Virus record (IMG/VR): IMGVR_UViG_3300027788_001572
Coordinates: 1 to 30,389 of that record
Direction: 5' to 3' (one strand)
DNA length: 30,389 nucleotides
Source: a virus
Position numbers and translations under genes: made by a program. Of the stretch, positions 5,117 through 30,389 are shown piece by piece; positions within the stretch are counted from its first letter, which is position 1, and the number at the start of each line of letters is the position of its first letter. The notes under the pieces were generated by a model. It was given only the letters and a program-made list of their open reading frames with translations. It was not told the origin of the DNA and searched no databases.

Positions 5117-5587
5117 ATGCCCGGCATAGTAAGAAAAACTCAAGATCACCACATTGGCCATGCATCACCAAGTCCTAACGGATTTCACCAGACATCATAC
5201 GCTGAAGGTAGTCCCAATACTTTTGTTAATGGTACTGCTGCTGTTAGAATAGGAGATAAAACTGGTTGTGGTGATCCTGCTACAGCCGGGTCATCTAATA
5301 TTTTTATAAATGGAATAGCAGTACATAGATTGGGTGATTCAACAGGAGGCCACGCAAGTTGGGTTCCTAATGCTTCAACTACATCAAGCACTAATGTTTA
5401 TGCTAATGACGTAAGTGGATCTCAGGGTGATGTTGATGATGATAAAGCTTCAGCATCGAATAATACAGTATCAGGAGCAACAGTGGTAAGCACTGCTGAA
5501 TTACAGATGGCAGTAAGTCCTTTTACACAAACTGTAGATTCTTCCTGTACTGCTTATAATTTTACAACTAGTGTTTGTGGAGATTAG
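5117..5587 (+). CDS. PAAR-domain spike tip protein, gp5.4-like
   Basis: This is a PAAR-repeat protein that caps and sharpens the gp5 beta-helix needle, as T4 gp5.4 does. The N-terminal MPGIVRKTQDHHIGHA and the repeated blocks NTFVNGTAAVRIGD (34-47) and NIFINGIAVHRLGD (61-74) are diagnostic. His residues at 11, 12, 15, 24, 70 and 79 plus Cys51 are candidates for the tip metal site. PAAR proteins are usually about 95 aa; this one has an extra Ser/Asp-rich tail (about 96-156) with Cys144 and Cys154. AGAGGA at 5103-5108 supports the start, 13 bases after the gp5 stop, so the two are co-expressed. Confidence 0.92.
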   Translation: MPGIVRKTQDHHIGHASPSPNGFHQTSYAEGSPNTFVNGTAAVRIGDKTGCGDPATAGSSNIFINGIAVHRLGDSTGGHASWVPNASTTSSTNVYANDVSGSQGDVDDDKASASNNTVSGATVVSTAELQMAVSPFTQTVDSSCTAYNFTTSVCGD

Positions 5588-5588
5588 A

Positions 5589-7379
5589 ATGGTTGATTTT
5601 GCAAACGCTAATTTATGTGGCGCAAGTCCAGAACTGAATGACGTTATGAGTAAACTCACTGCGGCAAAATCAGATGCAAAAGCAAAGCTTAATGAAGCAG
5701 CATCTACTGCATCTGCTGCGTTTGCAGAAGCGCAGAATGAACTTGAGGGATTGAAAGATAAACTGCAAACTATTGAGATACCAACTCTACCTAAACTAAA
5801 CTTGCAGGCAGAAATTGCAAGTCTTACTTCACAGATACCCGGCACCCCAGCTTTTTTTTCTGCACTAGCAAAAATTAAAACAGAATTTGGTGATGACATA
5901 AAGTCTGGTGGTTTAGAGTTAGATAGTCTTGTTAGTAGTGCGACTGCGGCAATATTAGGTGGTGGTAATATTTGTGCCCTTGTTCCCAATCTTGAGAAAG
6001 AGGCAGGGAGTGCTGAACCATCAGCCCAAAAACCTATTGCACCAAAACAAGCAGCTGTCGCTGCCGTAACTGAAGCTTCATCTGTGGCGAACCAAAATAT
6101 TGGAGTAGAGACACAGTATGCTGCTTTGCAGAGCAAGATGTCATCTTTTTTTACAAGTTCAATAGCACCAACACAGGATACTTCTGCATTTCAAATAGCA
6201 CTACCCGGTGCATTTAAAACAGTGTCACTTGGTGGCGGTGCTCCCACTAGTGTTGCTTTTCCACCCACATCTGTGGGTGAGAGAACAAATTATGCCTCGG
6301 CACAACAAGGCGATGGATTTTCATATAAAAAAGCAACAATTACTGAAACATTTTCCCTTGCTGATGTTGTTCAAGAAGCCGCCTATACTGAAGTAGAGTC
6401 CGACGGCGAGGGCAATGAAGAAAAAAAGGAAATAGATGCCAAAACATATGTAATACTTAAACATAACCCTGTTAGAATTAAGAGCTTACTATTTCATACC
6501 GGCACAGGTGTTAATAAAGGATATTGGGACAGATCACAACGCAAAAGATTTAATTTAGACGAAAATATTGCAAGCACTGACGCAAATAAAGGATTTTATT
6601 ATAGAAATCGATATGGTCGTCACGCTGATCTACTTATCCCTACTGGTGATTATGCTACTACTGGGTTTAATGATAATACTAATTGGGCTACTTTCAGTTT
6701 GCAACCAAACCGATTTAACTTTTACCCTCCAGTTAAACTTTCTGATCATCCGGGCAACATAAAATCAGGTGGCACTGTTTTTAGTTCTGATCCTGACATA
6801 TTTGTAGGACATAATAAGAACCCTATGAGTGATGCAAGATTAAATTCCAAATATAAAGGGATGTGTGTTTTATTAACTTATTCATATCTGGAAAGGTATG
6901 ATCCTGATTATGTTCCCTCAAAAACACCACCAAAAAAGAACACTCCGGTGCCAGTCTCAACGCTGGACTACCCAGTCCCGCCGGACGCACAACCCACAGT
7001 GGCAACGGTAAAGCGGCCTCCAACCAAAGCCGAACCGGAGCCAGAAAAACCACCGCTTGCGCCGAAGAAGACACCCCCGGAAGAGATAGCAAAGATTAAA
7101 TCAGCATCAGATCGAAAATCAACCACCACACTGGCAGACTTACAAAAAATTGCTGACGCAAAATACAGTAGTTATAAGGTTGAGGTTCAACAACTGGGGC
7201 TCCACGATAGCGGCCAGTACCTAGTTCAGGTCACGATGGCCAGTATCACTAAGATGGGCTTCATGATCGTTAATAAGGCCCTTGTGAAAGCGAAAATAGG
7301 TTATACGGCCATAGGTAAACCACCAGAGCAAGCGCTTGAAGGTGCTGTGGCAAATATGCTGCGGGCGGCGAAAAAGTGA
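5589..7379 (+). CDS. Virion structural protein next to PAAR, 596 aa
   Basis: The start is ATG 5589, with GTGGAG (5576-5581) seven bases upstream; the in-frame GTG at 5571 has no ribosome-binding site. The first 80 residues are an Ala/Glu-rich coiled coil (AKSDAKAKLNEAASTASAAF). A middle part (about 240-440) is rich in Asn and aromatic residues and contains NPVRIKSLLFHTGTG. A Pro/Lys linker (about 446-505) and a small C-terminal domain ending ANMLRAAKK follow. Proteins with this N-terminus (Phe-Ala-Asn-x-Asn-x-Cys then long helices) occur beside gp5/PAAR in marine T4-like phages and are called structural. GC rises to about 52% in the last 420 bases, against about 35% at 6541-6720 (hand counts). 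The terminal module may have come from elsewhere. The exact role is unknown. Confidence 0.75.
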   Translation: MVDFANANLCGASPELNDVMSKLTAAKSDAKAKLNEAASTASAAFAEAQNELEGLKDKLQTIEIPTLPKLNLQAEIASLTSQIPGTPAFFSALAKIKTEFGDDIKSGGLELDSLVSSATAAILGGGNICALVPNLEKEAGSAEPSAQKPIAPKQAAVAAVTEASSVANQNIGVETQYAALQSKMSSFFTSSIAPTQDTSAFQIALPGAFKTVSLGGGAPTSVAFPPTSVGERTNYASAQQGDGFSYKKATITETFSLADVVQEAAYTEVESDGEGNEEKKEIDAKTYVILKHNPVRIKSLLFHTGTGVNKGYWDRSQRKRFNLDENIASTDANKGFYYRNRYGRHADLLIPTGDYATTGFNDNTNWATFSLQPNRFNFYPPVKLSDHPGNIKSGGTVFSSDPDIFVGHNKNPMSDARLNSKYKGMCVLLTYSYLERYDPDYVPSKTPPKKNTPVPVSTLDYPVPPDAQPTVATVKRPPTKAEPEPEKPPLAPKKTPPEEIAKIKSASDRKSTTTLADLQKIADAKYSSYKVEVQQLGLHDSGQYLVQVTMASITKMGFMIVNKALVKAKIGYTAIGKPPEQALEGAVANMLRAAKK

Positions 7380-14289: not shown

Positions 14290-17200
14290 ATGGCATATCA
14301 ATCAATAGATTTAGGAACAACCGCAGGGGATGGTACAGGTGATACTATTCGAGATGGTGGTGATAAACTCAATGACAACTTTGAGGAAATCTATACTCTT
14401 TTGGGTACGGGTACTGCACTAAGTTCTGGTATTAGTGCTGATGCTACTGTTATAACTCTTATAGCTCCAACAATATCTGGTGTCGAAGCATTTGCAGACA
14501 ATGGTGATATCTCAAATCCTGTAATTACAAGAACAGGTGATACTAATACAGGTATATTTTTTCCTTCCGAAAACAACTTATCGGTTACAACAGGTGGAGC
14601 TCTTAGAACAACAGTCAATAGTACTGGATTGGTTGTTGTGGGTAATGTTACAACTACTGGTACGGTAGAACCTGCTGGTGACACTGCTGCTGAAGACAAT
14701 GCAGCAATCGGTTATACCTCAACAGAAGGCCTGATATTAACTGGGCAAGGCAGTACAAATGACATAACTATTAAAAATGACGCTGACGCAGATGTACTAG
14801 AAATACCAACTGGTACTACTAATGTAACTGTTGTTGGAGATATTACATCAGCAAAAACTCTTAATGCAGCTGGTGATACTGATGCTGGTGATAATGCTGC
14901 CATTGGTTATACTTCTGCTGAAGGGCTCATACTCACCGGGCAAGGCTCAACATCAGACATCACATTGAAGAATGATGCTGATGCTACTGTGTTCACAGTA
15001 CCTACTGGTACTACTAATGTGGATATTGTAGGAGTTGCAACCGCTGCTACATTTGAGCCAGATGGAGACACTGCGGCTAGTGATAATGCTGCAATCGGTT
15101 ATACCTCAACAGAAGGCCTGATATTAACCGGCCAGGGCAGCACAAATGACATAACTATTAAAAATGACGCTGACGCAGATGTTATTGAAATACCAACTGG
15201 TACAGTTAATGTTACAATGGCGGGTACTTTGGATGTTGTTGGTGCAGTAACAACTGCTGCCTTAACTGCCAGTGGTATCATGAAAACAGACGATACCACT
15301 GCTGCAACTTCTACAACAGATGGTTCTCTACAAACTGACGGTGGTTTGTCAGTAGTCCTAGATGCAGTTATTGGTGATGATTTGTTTATGTTAAGTGACG
15401 CTTCTGTAATTGCTTTTGGTGCAAACTCTGAAATCACATTGGCTCATGTCCATAATGTAGGGTTAACATTAACCCATGCCACTGGCAGCGATGACTATCC
15501 TATTGTATTACAGCTGAAATCTGAAGAGAATGCTATTACAGCAAATAACGTGATTGCTTCTCTTGAGTTTGCTGCTGGTGACTCAGATGGTACAGACGGC
15601 GCAACAGTCGCTGCTGGTATTCATGCAATTGCAGAAGGAACATTTAGTGCATCTGCAAACGCAACAAAATTAGTATTTACAACTGGTGTATCAGAAACTG
15701 CTGCTTCTAGTGCTACTGCTAAAGCAACACTAAGTTCAATCGGTGACTTCCAAGTTGCTGGTGACTTGGTTATCAAGGATGGTGGTCTTATTGGTTCTGC
15801 CAGTGACTTGGATGCATTAAGCATTTCTTCTGGTGGTGTGGTTAACTTTACTGCCAGACCTACCTTTGCTGCTTCTCTGACAATTCAAGATGGTGGGTCA
15901 ATCGGTTCTGCCAGTGACCTTAATGCAGTAACAATTTCAAGTGGTGGTGTAGTTGCTGTAACCGCAACAACTGCTTCTAGCTCTGCTTCTACCGGTGCCT
16001 TGACGGTTGCTGGTGGTGCTGGCGTTGCTGCTGACTTGAGTGTTGGTGATGACCTAAGATTGCTTTCAGATGCAGCGCATCTTTCTTTTGGCCAAGATTC
16101 AGAAGTTAAATTAACGCATGTCCATAATGATGGGCTATTGCTTAATACTGATATGCAACTCCAGTTTAGGGATAGTGCAATCAATATTAGGTCAGACGCT
16201 GATGGCGATTTAGATATTAATGCTGATGACGAAATAGAACTTAATTCAACACTTATTGATATCAACGGTAATGTAGAGATTAGTGGTACATTGACACAAA
16301 CAGGTGTTGCTACTTTTGTTGCAAGACCTGTATTTAGTGCAAATATTACAGTTCAAGATGGTGGTCAAATCGGTTCTGCTAGTGATGTAGACGCAATTGC
16401 AATTGCTTCTGACGGTGTAGTAACCTTTAGTCAAGCACCAGTATTTCCTAATGGTAGTATTGATATTGTTGATATTGATCTTGATGGTGCAACAGAGATG
16501 GGCGCAGCTATTGCAGATGCTGACTTATTTATGATAGATGATGGTGCTGGTGGCACCATGAAGTCAGTGCTTGCTTCAAGAATTGCATCTTATATTGGTG
16601 CAGGGATTTCCTCTGCTGCTGATAATATAACTGGCGGTGATTCCGCAGTTACTATATCAACAACCGTTGGTAATATCACACTTGATGCTGAACAGAGCGA
16701 TAAAGATATTATTCTTAAAGGTACAGATGGCGGTGTTGACACAACCTTCTTAACTATTTCTGGTGCTGCTGCTGGTTTAGCAACATTCAATGCTGGTATT
16801 ACAATTGGTGGAAATCTAATTATTCCTAATGCGGGTAACATTGGTTCTGCTAGTGATACAGACGCAATCGCAATCGCTTCTAATGGTGTAGTGACCTTTA
16901 GTCAAATACCAGTTATGCCAGCAAACTCCATCGACAGTGATGAATATATAGATGGTTCTATTGACCTCGCACATATGTCTGCTAACTCCGTTGACAGTGA
17001 CCAATATGTAGATGGCTCAATTGACGCAGCACATCTTGCCACTAATTCAGTGACAACTGTTAAGATAACTGATGCGAACGTCACATCTGCAAAAATAGCG
17101 AGCTCGGCTGTCTCAACTATAAAAATAGCAGCAGATGCCATAACTGGAACTAAGATTGCTGATGATGCAATTGATAGTGAACATATTGCTGCTGGTGCTA

Positions 17201-18348
17201 TTGATGCAGAACATATGGCTGCAAACTCCATTGATAGTGGTTCTTATGTAGATGGTTCTATTGACCTTGCACATATGTCAGCAAACTCCGTTGATAGTAA
17301 CCAATATGTAGATGGTTCTATTGATACCGCACATATTGCTGCTAGTCAAATAACATTGGCAAAGATGGCCACAAACTCTATTGATAGTAACCAATATGTA
17401 GATGGTAGTATTGATGTTGCACATATGTCTGCAAACTCAATTGACAGTGCTCAGTATGTTGATGGTAGTATTGATAGGGAACATCTTGCCGCTGATATTG
17501 TTGATGGAACTAAGATTGCTAATGATGCTATTAATTCAGAACACTATGCTGCAGGCAGTATTGATGCAGAACATATGGCTGCAAACTCTATTGATAGTGC
17601 TGCTTACGTTGATGGTTCTATCGATAGGGCACATCTTTCTGCTGACATCATAGACGGCACTAAGATTGCTAATGATGCTATTAACTCTGAGCATTACGCA
17701 GCAGATTCGATTGATGCTGAACACTATGCTGCTGGTTCTGTGGATGCAACTGCAATAGCTGCATCTGCTGTCGGCGCAAGCGAGTTAAATGTTAGTGGTA
17801 ATGGTACAACTTCGCAGTTCTTGAGGTCAGATGGTGATGGCACGATGACTTGGGCAGAGCCAACCTCGGTTGCAATTATTAGTGTGCAAGACTTTACGTC
17901 TAGTGGTACTTGGTCTAGACCCTCTGGCTGTACTAAGGTTCATGTTCATATTACCGCTGGTGGAGGTGGTGCCAGGCATGGCGATGCAGGAGGCGCCAAG
18001 GAAAGCGATGACGTTTATGGCAGTGGTGGAGATGGTGGATCAGCAGAAGAAGTTATTGATGTTTCAAGTACTGCTTCTGTTACTGTAACAGTTGGTGCCG
18101 GTGGCACCAGCCCCGAACATGGAAGTGCAGGTGGCGCTGGTGGAACTTCATCTTTTGGTAGTTTTTGTTCAGCTGGAGGTGGTGTTGGTGGTGGCAACTC
18201 AGGTACATCTGCTAATGGTTCAGGATCAGGTGGTAATATAAACAGAAGCGGTAATCTACACGGCCCGTCCTTTGGAGCAGGAGGAGATGCAGTCGTCTCC
18301 ACCGCACCCGGTAAGGCTGGATATGTTTATGTTGTCAATTACGGATAG
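14290..18348 (+). CDS. Tail fibre protein with glycine-rich tip, 1352 aa
   Basis: The N-terminus (MAYQSIDLGTTAGDGTGDTI, then KLNDNFEEIYTLLGTGTA) is the attachment module common to marine myovirus fibres and is shared with the partial gene at 27815. Three repeats of about 65 residues follow (about 128-320), each with EGLILTGQGST and KNDADA. Next come repeats of DGGxIGSASDxxAxxI..GVV (about 495-720 and near 855). An array of short SIDSxxYVDGSIDxAHM units fills about 877-1155. The last 155 residues begin FTSSGTWSRPSGCTKVHVHI and become a Gly/Ser-rich loop domain, the kind of glycine-rich tip that binds receptors in other phages. A late promoter (14262) and AAAGGAAG precede it. Host recognition is inferred from architecture. 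No intramolecular chaperone domain is seen. Confidence 0.8.
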   Translation: MAYQSIDLGTTAGDGTGDTIRDGGDKLNDNFEEIYTLLGTGTALSSGISADATVITLIAPTISGVEAFADNGDISNPVITRTGDTNTGIFFPSENNLSVTTGGALRTTVNSTGLVVVGNVTTTGTVEPAGDTAAEDNAAIGYTSTEGLILTGQGSTNDITIKNDADADVLEIPTGTTNVTVVGDITSAKTLNAAGDTDAGDNAAIGYTSAEGLILTGQGSTSDITLKNDADATVFTVPTGTTNVDIVGVATAATFEPDGDTAASDNAAIGYTSTEGLILTGQGSTNDITIKNDADADVIEIPTGTVNVTMAGTLDVVGAVTTAALTASGIMKTDDTTAATSTTDGSLQTDGGLSVVLDAVIGDDLFMLSDASVIAFGANSEITLAHVHNVGLTLTHATGSDDYPIVLQLKSEENAITANNVIASLEFAAGDSDGTDGATVAAGIHAIAEGTFSASANATKLVFTTGVSETAASSATAKATLSSIGDFQVAGDLVIKDGGLIGSASDLDALSISSGGVVNFTARPTFAASLTIQDGGSIGSASDLNAVTISSGGVVAVTATTASSSASTGALTVAGGAGVAADLSVGDDLRLLSDAAHLSFGQDSEVKLTHVHNDGLLLNTDMQLQFRDSAINIRSDADGDLDINADDEIELNSTLIDINGNVEISGTLTQTGVATFVARPVFSANITVQDGGQIGSASDVDAIAIASDGVVTFSQAPVFPNGSIDIVDIDLDGATEMGAAIADADLFMIDDGAGGTMKSVLASRIASYIGAGISSAADNITGGDSAVTISTTVGNITLDAEQSDKDIILKGTDGGVDTTFLTISGAAAGLATFNAGITIGGNLIIPNAGNIGSASDTDAIAIASNGVVTFSQIPVMPANSIDSDEYIDGSIDLAHMSANSVDSDQYVDGSIDAAHLATNSVTTVKITDANVTSAKIASSAVSTIKIAADAITGTKIADDAIDSEHIAAGAIDAEHMAANSIDSGSYVDGSIDLAHMSANSVDSNQYVDGSIDTAHIAASQITLAKMATNSIDSNQYVDGSIDVAHMSANSIDSAQYVDGSIDREHLAADIVDGTKIANDAINSEHYAAGSIDAEHMAANSIDSAAYVDGSIDRAHLSADIIDGTKIANDAINSEHYAADSIDAEHYAAGSVDATAIAASAVGASELNVSGNGTTSQFLRSDGDGTMTWAEPTSVAIISVQDFTSSGTWSRPSGCTKVHVHITAGGGGARHGDAGGAKESDDVYGSGGDGGSAEEVIDVSSTASVTVTVGAGGTSPEHGSAGGAGGTSSFGSFCSAGGGVGGGNSGTSANGSGSGGNINRSGNLHGPSFGAGGDAVVSTAPGKAGYVYVVNYG
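14704..15203 (+). repeat. Long near-identical DNA repeat inside the fibre gene
   Basis: About 110 bp beginning at 14704 (GCAATCGGTTATACCTCAAC) recur from 15091 with only a few third-position changes. They encode repeat units 1 and 3 of the fibre. Unit 2, lying between them (about 14895-15010), encodes nearly the same peptide but with many more synonymous differences. The offset of 387 bp equals two protein repeat units. Confidence 0.8.
16920..17755 (+). repeat. Degenerate repeat array SIDS-YVDGSID-AHM in the fibre
   Basis: Roughly a dozen units of about 20 codons encode variants of ANSIDSxxYVDGSIDxAHMS, some interleaved with DGTKIANDAINSEHYA units. DNA copies are similar enough that slipped pairing or recombination could change their number. 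Such arrays are typical of trimeric fibre shafts, where they lengthen the rod. Confidence 0.8.
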
Positions 18349-18359
18349 GAGTATATATC

Positions 18360-18578
18360 ATGGGATGGATATTAATTAATACAGAACAAGACGGTCAAGC
18401 TATTGATATGGTAGAAAAAGCTACTGAAAAATTTGATACTTATCACACATTAGTTTGGGTTAATAATAAGAATAAGAAATTGACACACGAAAATTTACAA
18501 TTTTATAAATGGAATGGTGAACAATTTGAAGGTGAAGAACCTAAAGAAGATATGGATAATTTTCCAGAGGAAAGATAA
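18360..18578 (+). CDS. Hypothetical protein, 72 aa, in the AT-rich cassette
   Basis: The ORF starts MGWILINTEQDGQAIDMVEK, with AGGAG at about 18347-18351 before the ATG, 11 bases after the fibre stop. It is a small acidic protein; its C-terminal third is dominated by Glu, Asp and Pro (FEGEEPKEDMDNFPEER). It has no Cys and no membrane segment. Its stop overlaps the next start as TAATG, so it is translationally coupled to the QueC-like gene. Both are much more AT-rich than the surrounding structural genes, which suggests they entered together. No family is recognised. It could be a small partner of the PP-loop protein, which is inference from coupling only. Confidence 0.65.
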   Translation: MGWILINTEQDGQAIDMVEKATEKFDTYHTLVWVNNKNKKLTHENLQFYKWNGEQFEGEEPKEDMDNFPEER

Positions 18579-19402
18579 TGAAAATTTATGTAGGTATGTC
18601 TAGCGGACAAGATAGTGCGGCCGTTTTATATAAGTTGTTAACTGAAACAGATCATGAAATATATGCTAGAAACTCTAGATATAAAAAATTATATCCTAAA
18701 AATGAAATAGATTTTTTTGAATCGTATACGAAAAAAACAGTAGAATGGTTAAAAACAAACGTAAGAGATTTTGATTTTGATATAAATGACGCATATGTTC
18801 CCGAATGGTCTTTTTATTTACCAGAGGAAAAAAGAAAATACACTGATGTATCTAAAGAAGTTATAGAGAAATATTATAATAAGTTTATACCTACGCAAGG
18901 AATTATTAATAATGTAGGAGTTAGCGATAGTTCAGGTAATAGGTTACCCTATATCGCATTAGTTATAGAAAGATTTTATAATTTAGCTAAACATGCTAAA
19001 GAAATGGGTGCTGATTCATTAATGACCGGGCACGATTCGGCACAAATGAGAGGCAACTCTGCCGAAAAGAAAGAATTTTATGAAGAAGCATTTAAAGTCT
19101 CTGTTGATTTTCCTCTTGGTCATATGCATAGATTTGAAATATTTGAAAGTATGCCTAAAGAACTTAGAGATATTATGAATCCTTGTGATTTTTGGTGGAA
19201 GGATAAAGAAAGGGGGCCTTGCGGTAAATGTAGAAAATGCTTAACAAGAAAGATTTATTATAGTCATAAATATAGTATGGAAGAGTTAGGAAAACTTTAT
19301 ACTGATCAGGTGTTGAATAAACAGCAAGATTCTAAACTAGGTATATTAGCAACAGGAAGAGGTACTGCATGGTATACATTAGAATATTTAAAAAGACTAT
19401 AA
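18578..19402 (+). CDS. Divergent QueC-like PP-loop ATPase
   Basis: Residues 7-15 read MSSGQDSAA, a PP-loop ATP-pyrophosphatase motif (canonical SGGxDS; the first Gly is Ser here). Cys203, then CGKCRKC with Cys215, 218 and 221, matches the C-x(n)-CGxCxxC zinc site of QueC, which makes preQ0 from 7-carboxy-7-deazaguanine. The middle (GNRLPYIALVIERFYNLAKH, about 120-139, then LMTGHD) lines up with the QueC GRN-helix-TG region. The YPDCR substrate motif of QueC is replaced by MRGNSA, so the substrate may differ. It is 274 aa, against about 230 for QueC. GC is about 27% over 18601-18780 against about 40% in gp8 (hand counts). PreQ0 feeds queuosine or 7-deazaguanine DNA modification, but no other pathway gene is in the window. 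PAPS-reductase-like and NAD-synthase-like PP-loop enzymes are less likely because of the Cys pattern. Confidence 0.65.
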   Translation: MKIYVGMSSGQDSAAVLYKLLTETDHEIYARNSRYKKLYPKNEIDFFESYTKKTVEWLKTNVRDFDFDINDAYVPEWSFYLPEEKRKYTDVSKEVIEKYYNKFIPTQGIINNVGVSDSSGNRLPYIALVIERFYNLAKHAKEMGADSLMTGHDSAQMRGNSAEKKEFYEEAFKVSVDFPLGHMHRFEIFESMPKELRDIMNPCDFWWKDKERGPCGKCRKCLTRKIYYSHKYSMEELGKLYTDQVLNKQQDSKLGILATGRGTAWYTLEYLKRL

Positions 19403-19464: not shown

Positions 19465-20970
19465 ATGGCAGCAATTATAACAGAAAAATTTAGTCTCCAC
19501 AATGCGGCGCAATTTTTCGAATCTTTTTCAGAAACTGCCCCAAATGTTTACTATATGTTATTTGGTAAGGTTACTCCATACACAGCAGCAACCAGTGGTG
19601 GTACAGATTTAATTCCACCCGATCCGGTAAATGATGTTTCCAATGAGTATTATATATGGGATCAATCTACTGCTGGTAAAAAACTTGCAACTAGTGATGT
19701 TACTCATGCAATTATTCGTCGTGATTGGGAAAATGGTACTATTTATGACAGGTATGAAGATAATGTTGGCCCCAACAATTTAACTACATCTGGTCAAAAC
19801 AACCTTTATAACTCTACATTTTACTTTCGTACATCTGATAAACGTGTTTATAAAGTCCTAGATAATAATGGTGGCATTGCATATTCGGGGTCTGAACCTA
19901 CCTCTGAATCAAATTCCCTCTTTTCTCAGGGTGGTTATATTCTCAAGTATATGTATACCATGACCACTACAGAACAAACAAATTTCCTAACAATAGACTT
20001 CATGCCTGTTAGTACGGATTCTACTGTTTCTGCAGCTGCGGTTGATGGTAAAATTGAAAGTCTTATTGTAACTGGTGGTTCTGGTTATACTGATGGTACT
20101 TACTATACTGCTGTAACCGGCGATGGTGTAAATGCAGGAACAAGTTCTGGTGCAATTGTATCCTTCGTGGTTTCTGGTGGGATTATTCAAAAATTTGGAT
20201 TAATCAATGGCACTGATACTGTTATATATACTGCTGGTGCTGGTTATAGATTTGGCACGGTTACTCTCACAGATGCAACAGTATTTACCGATGCAGCACT
20301 TACAACAGCTGTAGGTACAAATGTTATTAATGGTGGTGCTGCTGGTGCAATTCAAATTGTAATTGGTCCAAAAGGTGGTCATGGTTTTGATGCAGTTAAA
20401 GAATTGGGCGCACACTATATAATAATGTCATCCCGATTTATTGGTGCAGAACGTGATGATCTTCATGTAGGAAATGATTTTCGTAACATTTTTATTGTTG
20501 CTGACCCAACAACTTATGGAACATCAACAGTTGCATCTGATGACACTGTTCGACTAAGTTATGCATCAAAGTTGACAACTGTTAGTGGAACATTCGCTGT
20601 TGATGAGAAAATTACACAGGCGTCAACTGGCGCAGTTGCTACAGTGGTTGAGTGGGATGCTACTAATTCTATTCTTTATTATCAACAAGAAAGATATAAT
20701 GGTTATGGCACAGATTCAATTGGTGCTTATGCCATTTTATCTGGTACAAACGCTATCACAGGTGCAACTTCAAGTGCTGTGGGAACACCTGACGCAACAG
20801 CTGACACAGCAGTAACTCTTGCAAATGGATTTACTATCACATTTACTGATGGTTATGCTAACCCAGAACTTCAACCAGATAGTGGTAGTATTATATTTAC
20901 AGAAAACATAGCACCCAACTCCCGTTCAGCTGAACAAACGGACGATTTTAAAATTATAGTGGAATTCTAA
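19465..20970 (+). CDS. 8: Baseplate wedge subunit, gp8-like
   Basis: gp8 is a dimeric wedge protein at the outer part of T4 baseplates. The N-terminal third has the family pattern: ITEKFSLHNAAQFFESF (5-21), YYMLFGK (29-35), PPDPVND, then HAIIRRDW (81-88) followed by GTIYDRY. GGYILKYMYTMT matches the T4 gp8 GYVWEYLFEI block, and the C-terminus ENIAPNSRSAEQTDDFKIIV corresponds to ENRPPI-x-DQTEEINILF. At 501 aa it exceeds T4 gp8 (334). The extra length is two beta-rich modules (about 195-290, with VTGGSGYTDGTYY, and about 370-450) typical of marine relatives. It has its own late promoter, and its stop is nine bases from the next gene. Confidence 0.82.
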   Translation: MAAIITEKFSLHNAAQFFESFSETAPNVYYMLFGKVTPYTAATSGGTDLIPPDPVNDVSNEYYIWDQSTAGKKLATSDVTHAIIRRDWENGTIYDRYEDNVGPNNLTTSGQNNLYNSTFYFRTSDKRVYKVLDNNGGIAYSGSEPTSESNSLFSQGGYILKYMYTMTTTEQTNFLTIDFMPVSTDSTVSAAAVDGKIESLIVTGGSGYTDGTYYTAVTGDGVNAGTSSGAIVSFVVSGGIIQKFGLINGTDTVIYTAGAGYRFGTVTLTDATVFTDAALTTAVGTNVINGGAAGAIQIVIGPKGGHGFDAVKELGAHYIIMSSRFIGAERDDLHVGNDFRNIFIVADPTTYGTSTVASDDTVRLSYASKLTTVSGTFAVDEKITQASTGAVATVVEWDATNSILYYQQERYNGYGTDSIGAYAILSGTNAITGATSSAVGTPDATADTAVTLANGFTITFTDGYANPELQPDSGSIIFTENIAPNSRSAEQTDDFKIIVEF

Positions 20971-27814: not shown

Positions 27815-30389
27815 ATGGCATATCAAGAACTTGGTATTGGAACGGTTGTTAATGATGGTACTGGTGATACCCTTCCCGTTGCTGGTGACAAAATTAATGA
27901 TAACTTTGTAGAGATTTATACTTTACTTGGTACGGGTACTGCACTAACGAGTGGTATTAGTGCCACTGCAACAGTGGTGACTTTAACTGCTCCAACAATT
28001 AGTGGTGTAGTCGGCGGGACGCAAACCTCTGCTACAATTACAACTCTGACAGGAACCACGTTTAACGCCGGAACTCTTGCATTAGCTGCTGGTTCTATTA
28101 CAGATGGTTCTGGAGCCATTAGTTTTGGTAATGAGAATTTAACAACAACAGGCGTAGTCACTGCTGCATCATTAGATATATCAGGTAATGTTGACGTTGA
28201 CGGAACCTTGGAAACCGATGCACTAACAATTGACGGTGTTACTCTTGCAGAAACTATTGCTGATACAGTTGGAGCGATGGTTAGTTCCAACACAGAAACA
28301 AATATTACAGTAACCTATGAAGATAGCGATAATACATTAGATTTCGTTATTGGTACGCTCAACCAAAGTACATCAGGGAATGCTGCAACAGCAACTGCAC
28401 TTGAAACTGCACGAACAATTCACGGTGTGTCATTTGACGGTACTGCTAATATTGATCTTTCTGAAGTCGTACAAGATACGGTCGGTGCGATGTTCTCTAG
28501 TAATACAGAGACAAACATTACTGCAACATATCAGGATGCAGATGGTACTATTGATCTTGTTATTGGCACACTCAATCAGGACACAACTGGAAATGCTGCC
28601 ACTGCCACTGCACTTGCAACTGCTAGAACTATCGGTGGAACCTCGTTTGATGGTTCTGCAAATATTGCAGTAGCGTTAGCAACACTTGCTACTACTGTTA
28701 CTATCACGGATAATGAATCTACGAATGAGAACAATGCGATCATCTTCACTGCTGGTGGTGATGTTGATGGCGGAAATCTTGGACTAGAATCTGATGGTAC
28801 ACTAACATACAACCCAAGTACGGGTAAAATAACTGCTACAGGATTTGTTGGTGCATTAACAGGTAATGCGAGTGGAACTGCTGCTACCGTTACAGGTGCA
28901 GCCCAAACAAATATAACCTCTTTGGGTACTTTAATAAGATTAGTTATTGCTGATGGTGGAACTGTCGGTTCTGTTTCTGAAACAGACGCAATTACGATTG
29001 CAGCAGATGGTGTTGTAACTATGGGTCAAATACCAGTTTTTAGTGCTGGTATTAATGTTTCTGGTGGTACTATTGCTGGTACACTCGCAACTGCCGCACA
29101 AACAAATATCACTTCAGTAGGAACACTAACTGCACTTCAAGTAGATAATATTAACATTAATGGTAATGCTATTACGAGTACTGCTGGTACTGACTTAACA
29201 ATTACTCCAGTAGCAGGACAACAGATTGTTCTTGATGGTACGATTGTCATTGATGCCGGAGTAGTCACTGGTGCAACAAGCATTACATCAACAGCTTTTG
29301 TTGGTGATATAACTGGTGATGTTACAGGTAATGCTGATACGGCGACCACACTTGCAACTGCTAGAACTATCGGTGGAACCTCGTTTGATGGTTCTGCAAA
29401 TATTGCGGTAGCACTAGCTACACTTGCTACTACTGCTACAGTCTCCGACAGTACTGCAAACACAAACTTTCCTGTGGTCTTCAACGATGAGTCGAATGCT
29501 CTGTTGGACGACACAGGTGCATTGCGTTACAACCCAAGCACAGGAACATTACTTGTTCCAAATCTTGTTGTAGCAGGAACAACTACTCAGGTTGACACTG
29601 TTACTATGGAGGCAGCAAACGCTGTTGTGTTTGAAGGTGCAACTGCTGATGACCACGAAACAACATTAACAATTATTGATCCAACTGCTGACCGCACACA
29701 GAGATTGATTAACCAGAGTGGTTATATTCCTCTACTTGCAGCACTCACAACTACTGCAATCACATCCACTCCAGAAGAACTTAATATTCTGGATGGTGCA
29801 ACGGTTGTGGTTGGAGAAATTAACGCACTGGATTTGGGTAGCACTGCTGTTGGTACTGCAATTGCAAGTAAAGCAGTTGTTCTAGACTCTAGTAAAGATT
29901 ACACAGGCATAAGAAATCTAACAATATCGGGCGAGATAGACGCTGCAACAGGAGACTATTCTGGTGCCGTTGATATTGCTGGCGCTACAACAACTGCCGC
30001 CATAACTGCTAGTGGAATTATTAAAACTGATGACACTACTGCTGCAACAAATACTACAGATGGTTCACTGCAAACTGATGGTGGTCTATCAGTTGTCTTG
30101 GATGCTGTTATCGGTGATGACTTATTCTTACTTAGTGATGCTGCTGTATTAACTTTTGGCGCAGATAAAGATGTTACTGTAACCCACGTTGCTGATGCAG
30201 GAATAATGATTAATGCTGCAATGCAACTCCGTTTCCGTGATAGCGCAATCAGCATCGGTTCTCCAGCAGATGGTGATCTAGATATCAATGCCGATGATGA
30301 AATAGAACTCAATTCAACCCTGATTGACATTAATGGTAATGTTGATATTAGTGGTACTACCTTAATGACTGGCGTCACAACGCACGGCG
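27815..30389 (+). CDS. Second tail fibre protein, N-terminal 858 codons (partial)
   Basis: The frame is open from ATG 27815 to the end of the window, so the stop and the receptor-binding tip are missing. The N-terminus (MAYQELGIGTVVNDGTGDTL, then KINDNFVEIYTLLGTGTA) is a clear paralogue of the fibre at 14290. After it come repeats of the classic phage fibre unit ATALATARTIGGTSFDGSAN with TQ.NITSLGTL blocks. Near the end, TTDGSLQTDGGLSVVLDAVI and DEIELNSTLIDINGNV match the first fibre (near residues 343 and 646) closely. The two fibres may form parts of one composite fibre or alternative tips. It has its own late promoter. A third partner or a chaperone could lie beyond the window. Confidence 0.8.
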   Translation, partial: MAYQELGIGTVVNDGTGDTLPVAGDKINDNFVEIYTLLGTGTALTSGISATATVVTLTAPTISGVVGGTQTSATITTLTGTTFNAGTLALAAGSITDGSGAISFGNENLTTTGVVTAASLDISGNVDVDGTLETDALTIDGVTLAETIADTVGAMVSSNTETNITVTYEDSDNTLDFVIGTLNQSTSGNAATATALETARTIHGVSFDGTANIDLSEVVQDTVGAMFSSNTETNITATYQDADGTIDLVIGTLNQDTTGNAATATALATARTIGGTSFDGSANIAVALATLATTVTITDNESTNENNAIIFTAGGDVDGGNLGLESDGTLTYNPSTGKITATGFVGALTGNASGTAATVTGAAQTNITSLGTLIRLVIADGGTVGSVSETDAITIAADGVVTMGQIPVFSAGINVSGGTIAGTLATAAQTNITSVGTLTALQVDNININGNAITSTAGTDLTITPVAGQQIVLDGTIVIDAGVVTGATSITSTAFVGDITGDVTGNADTATTLATARTIGGTSFDGSANIAVALATLATTATVSDSTANTNFPVVFNDESNALLDDTGALRYNPSTGTLLVPNLVVAGTTTQVDTVTMEAANAVVFEGATADDHETTLTIIDPTADRTQRLINQSGYIPLLAALTTTAITSTPEELNILDGATVVVGEINALDLGSTAVGTAIASKAVVLDSSKDYTGIRNLTISGEIDAATGDYSGAVDIAGATTTAAITASGIIKTDDTTAATNTTDGSLQTDGGLSVVLDAVIGDDLFLLSDAAVLTFGADKDVTVTHVADAGIMINAAMQLRFRDSAISIGSPADGDLDINADDEIELNSTLIDINGNVDISGTTLMTGVTTHG
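28613..29438 (+). repeat. Near-identical repeat of about 85 bp in the second fibre gene
   Basis: The stretch from 28613 (CTTGCAACTGCTAGAACTAT) recurs from 29351 and remains almost identical for about 85 bases, with only a few changes near its end. The offset is 738 bp, or 246 codons, so the copies are in frame. They encode the LATARTIGGTSFDGSANIAV fibre unit. Confidence 0.75.

Follow-up and report, generated by a model that had tools for sequence, protein, structure and literature searches.

The stretch of DNA analysed here (the window) is an entire IMG/VR record of 30,389 bases, a fragment rather than a complete genome, and its source is a T4-like marine myophage. The gp8 encoded here shares 54% identity with that of Methylophilales phage Melnitz and 40% with that of Pelagibacter phage Mosig, and the gene order gp25, gp6, fibre, slot, gp8 is similar to the order in both phages. 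Two open reading frames (ORFs) fill the slot between the fibre gene and gp8, encoding proteins of 72 and then 274 amino acids, and they meet in a TAATG overlap. The features of this region are:

14290..18348, + strand: tail-fibre gene, 1352 aa, with a Gly-rich C-terminal tip (PHROGs tail-fibre matches)
18327..18587, + strand: conserved island of 261 nt with 3 mismatches to sister contig L046, flanked on the left by the variable fibre tip and on the right by the PP-loop gene, also variable (windowed identity)
18360..18578, + strand: gene of the 72-aa acidic protein, in a slot of small fibre-associated or chaperone genes (ORF, L046 homologue, Mosig slot)
18578..19402, + strand: gene of the 274-aa predicted QueC-fold PP-loop protein (Pfam, PHROGs, NCBI model, AlphaFold, profile search)
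18599..18616, + strand: PP-loop motif SSGQDS, residues 8-13 (sequence, alignments)
19028..19066, + strand: GHDSAQMRGNSAE, residues 151-163, in place of the GxxxxDxSxYPDC of QueC; substrate pocket replaced (alignments)
19184..19240, + strand: four-cysteine zinc-type site C203-x11-C215-G-K-C218-R-K-C221 (26-sequence alignment)
19202..19226, + strand: 25-nt stretch matching the extreme end of L046 (6051-6075) at 23/25 positions, out of frame with the L046 allele (sequence match)
19465..20970, + strand: gene of the gp8 baseplate wedge protein, bounding the slot on the right (phrog_438, E 1.5e-106)

The original prediction had placed a coupled gene pair between a fibre gene and gp8, and both ORFs and their overlap lie exactly where it put them, with fibre-family matches on the left and phrog_438 on the right. 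It had also quoted a GC content near 27%, which is too low: we measure 28.8% for the 72-aa gene, 30.5% for the PP-loop gene and 30.2% for the pair, whereas the window averages 39.4% and the fibre gene 42.6%. Judged from sequence comparison, the pair is real and not a chance arrangement, as the 72-aa gene recurs in an independent contig and dozens of relatives of the PP-loop gene keep the PP-loop and cysteine positions. Within the fibre, residues 1206-1341 match PF21722 (Gly_rich_2, E 8.9e-8). Upstream, a 602-aa ORF at 5571-7379, flanked by a PAAR-motif gene and by gp25, has no PHROGs match.

The 72-aa protein begins MGWILIN and is acidic by count, with 16 Asp or Glu residues and 8 Lys or Arg residues. 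It matches nothing in Pfam or PHROGs, known chaperone families included, and its AF2 model (pLDDT 61) is too poor for a fold to be assigned. When relatives were sought in all loci of the enzyme family described below, only L046 contained one, where the gene is again co-inherited with a PP-loop enzyme gene. In Mosig, the slot just before gp8 is occupied by a PF16778 tail assembly chaperone (E 8.1e-12), a likeness that consists of the shared slot only. The protein had been proposed as an acidic partner of the enzyme; its acidity and co-inheritance are borne out, but because it occupies the chaperone slot, a partner role is just one of two readings.

The 274-aa protein passes the gathering cut-off of PF06508 narrowly (23.5 versus 22 bits) when searched whole, and a six-frame search breaks it into pieces that each fall below the cut-off. 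It also matches the 'QueC-like' family phrog_1550 over 61 residues (E 1.2e-5). Both of its predicted motifs are present, the SSGQDS loop and the C-x11-CGxCxxC site. In alignment A3, Ser13 of the PP-loop is invariant and Ser8 nearly so, and the complete SSGQDS is invariant in the clade to which the window protein belongs; across 26 sequences Cys203, Cys218 and Cys221 are invariant and Cys215 is nearly invariant. The substrate region is replaced, as had been anticipated for a divergent QueC-like enzyme. Neither the sequence nor the alignments contain the YxQxHxxE, VPxRN or YPDC motif (nor YPDCR) in this protein, and the alignments show that YPDC is absent from the whole phage family. Single substitutions in these three motifs abolish preQ0 formation in Escherichia coli (PMC13329287). 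Membership among ordinary QueC enzymes, which would have undone the prediction, is ruled out by the missing motifs and by a score of 17.6 bits against the cut-off of 150.3 for the QueC equivalog model TIGR00364.

To place the protein among PP-loop enzymes, we compared its AlphaFold model (mean pLDDT 79) with solved structures. VIA-align ranks Bacillus subtilis QueC first (Z 12.9, 3.4 Å over 179 residues), closely followed by ThiI (Z 12.3, tied with QueC within 1) and Cap9 (Z 11.6). The fold is shared by ThiI, NcsA/TtuA, MnmA, LarE and argininosuccinate synthase, with ThiI, LarE and MnmA fitting almost equally well, and Foldseek orders NcsA/TtuA ahead of QueC by E-value, so the fold alone is insufficient to single out QueC. 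A profile built from 26 family members finds QueC as its best solved relative (E 4.3e-6), and in a profile comparison against one canonical QueC only the PP-loop end aligns (probability 79). The assignment is drawn from the VIA-align score, the profile search and the zinc-type site taken together, and on these grounds the 274-aa protein is a QueC-fold protein, as modelled, but not a QueC. It belongs to the broad PF06508 superfamily, with the PP-loop, the four-cysteine site and a QueC-like predicted fold; zinc binding is likewise predicted. Canonical QueC (3bl5, 2pg3) resembles it over about 180 residues of the fold, in a PP-loop near the N-terminus, in a C-x(n)-CxxCxxC site and in a basic residue in the K165 region (R185 in the window protein). 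In contrast to canonical QueC, the window protein lacks the zinc-region tyrosine in addition to the three motifs, and is longer, and no FolE, QueD or TGT genes were found near it in this fragment. The short phage QueC-like proteins of phrog_1550 share a similar C-terminal CxxC region, with weak sequence similarity. One short QueC-like gene, gp16 of Mycobacterium phage FF47 (L005:9548-10153), is flanked by the genes for the major tail protein and a tail assembly chaperone, and resembles the window gene in its place among tail genes.

Relatives of the enzyme were found in stages of increasing breadth. A search with the 72-aa protein retrieved L046, the pair used as a query gave 25 loci, wider profiles gave 46 contigs besides the window, and L150 was added later. 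As judged by their sequences, these relatives form a phage-only family of uncultivated T4-like contigs, new here, and no description of it was found in the open-access literature. No members were found in cultured phage records. One pattern run over bacterial and archaeal genomes found no relative that would point to a cellular origin, and tblastn searches with both proteins against cultured phages, and with the enzyme against plasmids, gave no significant match. A scan of viral contigs with the 274-aa protein alone yielded no confirmed relative and the exact zinc-motif DNA pattern had no match, but search patterns taken from a motif-steered alignment of artificially substituted copies recovered two distant relatives. 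In BFVD, three viral proteins match strongly in structure, at 33, 22 and 23% sequence identity. The tree groups the window protein with L046 and the tandem pair of L107 (support 100/98) and places L046 nearer to the L107 pair than to the window (98/93), although long branches leave this fine placement unsure. A PP-loop protein of phage HTVC008M annotated as 'NAD synthetase' was considered and is not a family member; it lies between a carbamoyltransferase and UDP-glucose dehydrogenase (NC_020484, 128165-132312), a gene set that suggests sugar-acid tailoring.

The relatives are concentrated beside genes of the tail and neck. Of the 46 contigs, 41 have a PP-loop gene immediately upstream of a gp13-like neck gene, two or more family members occur within the stretch read in 21, and an asparagine-synthase-like gene with GATase domains accompanies PP-loop paralogues in 14; near-duplicates among the contigs mean that these counts are not independent. 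L128 holds six family members, one cut by the contig end and one with a degenerate PP-loop. Elsewhere, the L107 relatives adjoin gp5-like genes, the L018 relative lies among fibre-like genes, and the L064 relatives likewise sit in a fibre-like or baseplate setting. In L046, the same fibre gene and 72-aa gene as in the window precede the PP-loop gene. On the evidence of gene order, L150 independently repeats the arrangement of fibre, small protein (here 120 aa) and PP-loop gene, which is followed by an ORF with an SGGMDS loop, a 2OG-Fe oxygenase and more fibre-like genes. Neighbours across the family include GATase or asparagine-synthase-like proteins, Asp/Asn hydroxylases, 2OG-Fe oxygenases and radical SAM proteins. 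At the position just ahead of the neck gene, HTVC008M has four 2OG-Fe oxygenases and Melnitz has tail fibres, which indicates that this region takes up both tail and modification genes.

Divergent PP-loop tandem arrays of up to six genes lie directly upstream of neck genes at L063:1237-5882, L128:3-5858 and L064:6992-9696, with an asparagine-synthase-like gene in the L063 and L128 arrays. The last paralogue (THLKPNLK..) is conserved across the three arrays despite having lost its PP-loop. Small proteins of roughly 110 aa are encoded between the last two PP-loop paralogues (L064:8616-8939, L128:4795-5118, L063:4801-5142), and one of them has an insignificant match to prokaryotic ubiquitin (E 0.065).

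Comparison of the window with L046 reveals an abrupt change in conservation along the cassette. The fibre tip is variable, at 58-83% identity in 60-nt bins from 18080 to 18319; the island that follows is nearly identical and encodes a 72-aa protein matching at 71 of 72 residues, whereas the next PP-loop protein is only 38% identical over 239 columns and its gene only 47-67% identical in most 60-nt bins. Within the zinc-motif region, the 25-nt match to the end of L046 exceeds the at most 18/25 obtained with shuffled L046 tails, and it may have been left by an exchange or have arisen as an artefact of assembly at the contig end. By this comparison with one sister contig, the slot behind the fibre holds exchangeable alleles of the PP-loop enzyme. 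The proposal that the cassette is a late-acquired mobile element agrees with these data, as the same slot in relatives lacks the pair, and L046 carries a different enzyme allele.

Taken together, the sequences and the predicted model identify the window enzyme as part of a QueC-fold branch that is divergent, exchangeable and found in marine T4-like phages. It would be an ATP-consuming, zinc-type enzyme in which the CDG-binding residues are replaced. By analogy with QueC chemistry, it would use ATP to adenylate a carboxylate or similar acyl group, and the activated acyl would pass to a nitrogen nucleophile to give an amide-type product from a substrate other than CDG. Gene position, with its fibre, baseplate and neck neighbours, and the exchange pattern together point to a target at the tail or a surface. 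This could be the virion tail, namely the adjacent fibre, for which the 72-aa protein would serve as chaperone or carrier, or alternatively a glycan exposed at the surface of the phage or host, and alleles would be swapped as tail specificity changes. We favour non-CDG carboxylate activation that tailors the tail fibre or a surface target, as a tentative reading held at somewhat less than even confidence. Consistent with it are the fibre, gp5-like and gp13-like neighbours of the relatives, the presence among them of asparagine-synthase-like, hydroxylase, oxygenase and radical SAM genes suited to tailoring, and the step from a 261-nt island with 3 mismatches to a divergent allele. Weighing on it, the target is read from position, and marine T4-like phages fill such slots with many unrelated genes; other PP-loop families (ThiI, LarE, MnmA) compete closely for the fold; and the exchange is seen against a single sister contig, both the window and its relatives being fragments. 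The boldest version, in which a diversified set of QueC-fold ligases covalently modifies the phages' own fibres or fibre-associated proteins, as a counterpart on the virion to conjugation of the Cap9 type, and their alleles are swapped with the fibre tips to alter host recognition, is improbable.

A narrower form of tail or surface tailoring, which we consider rather unlikely, is WbpG-like sugar-acid amidation, in which a surface glycan would be amidated at a uronic acid or N-acetyl sugar. WbpG-type N-sugar amidotransferases (PF06508 cluster 5) belong to the same PP-loop superfamily and carry the signature SGGxDSxY and CxxC(x)6CxC (PMC13329287). Several paralogues in the phage family have SGGxDSxY-type loops (SGGIDSTY, SGGINSTY), the asparagine-synthase-like genes with GATase domains give the relatives amidotransferase-like neighbours, and HTVC008M offers the example of a different PP-loop protein next to sugar-acid genes. 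However, the window protein reads SSGQDSAA with C-x11-CxxCxxC, and so has neither the tyrosine nor the cysteine pattern of WbpG, the window yielded no recognisable sugar-pathway gene, and the glycosyltransferase-like appearance of the L048 and L131 neighbours finds no support in Pfam.

It is quite unlikely that the cassette performs an N-terminal conjugation like that of Cap9 or QatC, in which a small acid would be joined to Gly2 of the 72-aa protein, or that it mimics or jams the QatBC or Cap9 proteins of the host. Cap9 modifies an N-terminal glycine and QatB needs one (PMC13279940; PMC11996544), and the co-inherited 72-aa protein starts Met-Gly and would expose Gly2. Cap9 of type IV CBASS (9nto) shares the QueC fold and has a candidate protein partner alongside, but it keeps YxDC, which the window protein lacks, and the window locus has tail genes as neighbours in place of a CD-NTase or Cap10. 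QatC of qatABCD is closer in that it is a QueC-fold protein that also lacks YPDC, with a CGxCxx-type zinc site and an adjacent product starting Met-Gly, but the window protein has no N-terminal extension before the core (its PP-loop begins at residue 8) and spaces its cysteines C-x11-C versus C-x19-C. Neither cassette protein has a PADLOC match, and the neighbours are tail genes rather than qatA, qatB or qatD. Moreover, the MGWILIN start, with a strand predicted at low confidence from residue 3, differs from MGTS or MGGS on flexible tails, and the other family loci lack a recognisable 72-aa homologue.

A non-catalytic or passenger role, with the protein retained for some reason other than catalysis as a structural or binding protein or a decayed relative, is decidedly unlikely for the window protein. 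Some paralogues have lost the PP-loop or cysteines, and one large clade has SSSSDS instead of SGGxDS, but SSGQDS and the four cysteines are all retained in the window clade at 31-40% identity, and close relatives in another, neck-adjacent clade are under purifying selection (dN/dS about 0.05-0.2). The modification of DNA or tRNA with 7-deazaguanine, raised by the original prediction, is very unlikely despite the QueC fold, a tRNA-Asn with the queuosine-type anticodon GTT at 1287-1361 and a distant relative (L018) whose 354-kb genome encodes FolE and QueD, as the CDG-recognition motifs are lost, the tandem paralogues adjoin structural genes in a manner unlike a que operon, and profile searches found no FolE, QueD or TGT in the window or 16 related contigs, all fragments. 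The same searches did detect both FolE and QueD in two genomes, nt-1 and the jumbo genome of L018, and the TGT model matched no sequence, including these two.

A second use of the QueC fold, for protein conjugation in the immunity of bacteria, was recently shown for Cap9 and is inferred for QatC. The phage-only branch described here, with its changed pocket, tandem copies and fibre or neck setting, suggests a further chemistry of ocean phages, with no counterpart in the cultured phage records searched. These phages probably carry out additional QueC-fold chemistry, perhaps with their own tails as the target. Should the virion be the target, one could test whether receptor-binding proteins are chemically modified; should the enzyme act on a glycan or other substrate, the family would still constitute a new enzyme group. 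QueC-fold phage genes of this type should not be annotated as queuosine genes. Near the right end of the window, a second fibre-like ORF (27815-30388) is open at the end of the record and shares stretches of about 73-79% nucleotide identity with the L046 fibre gene.
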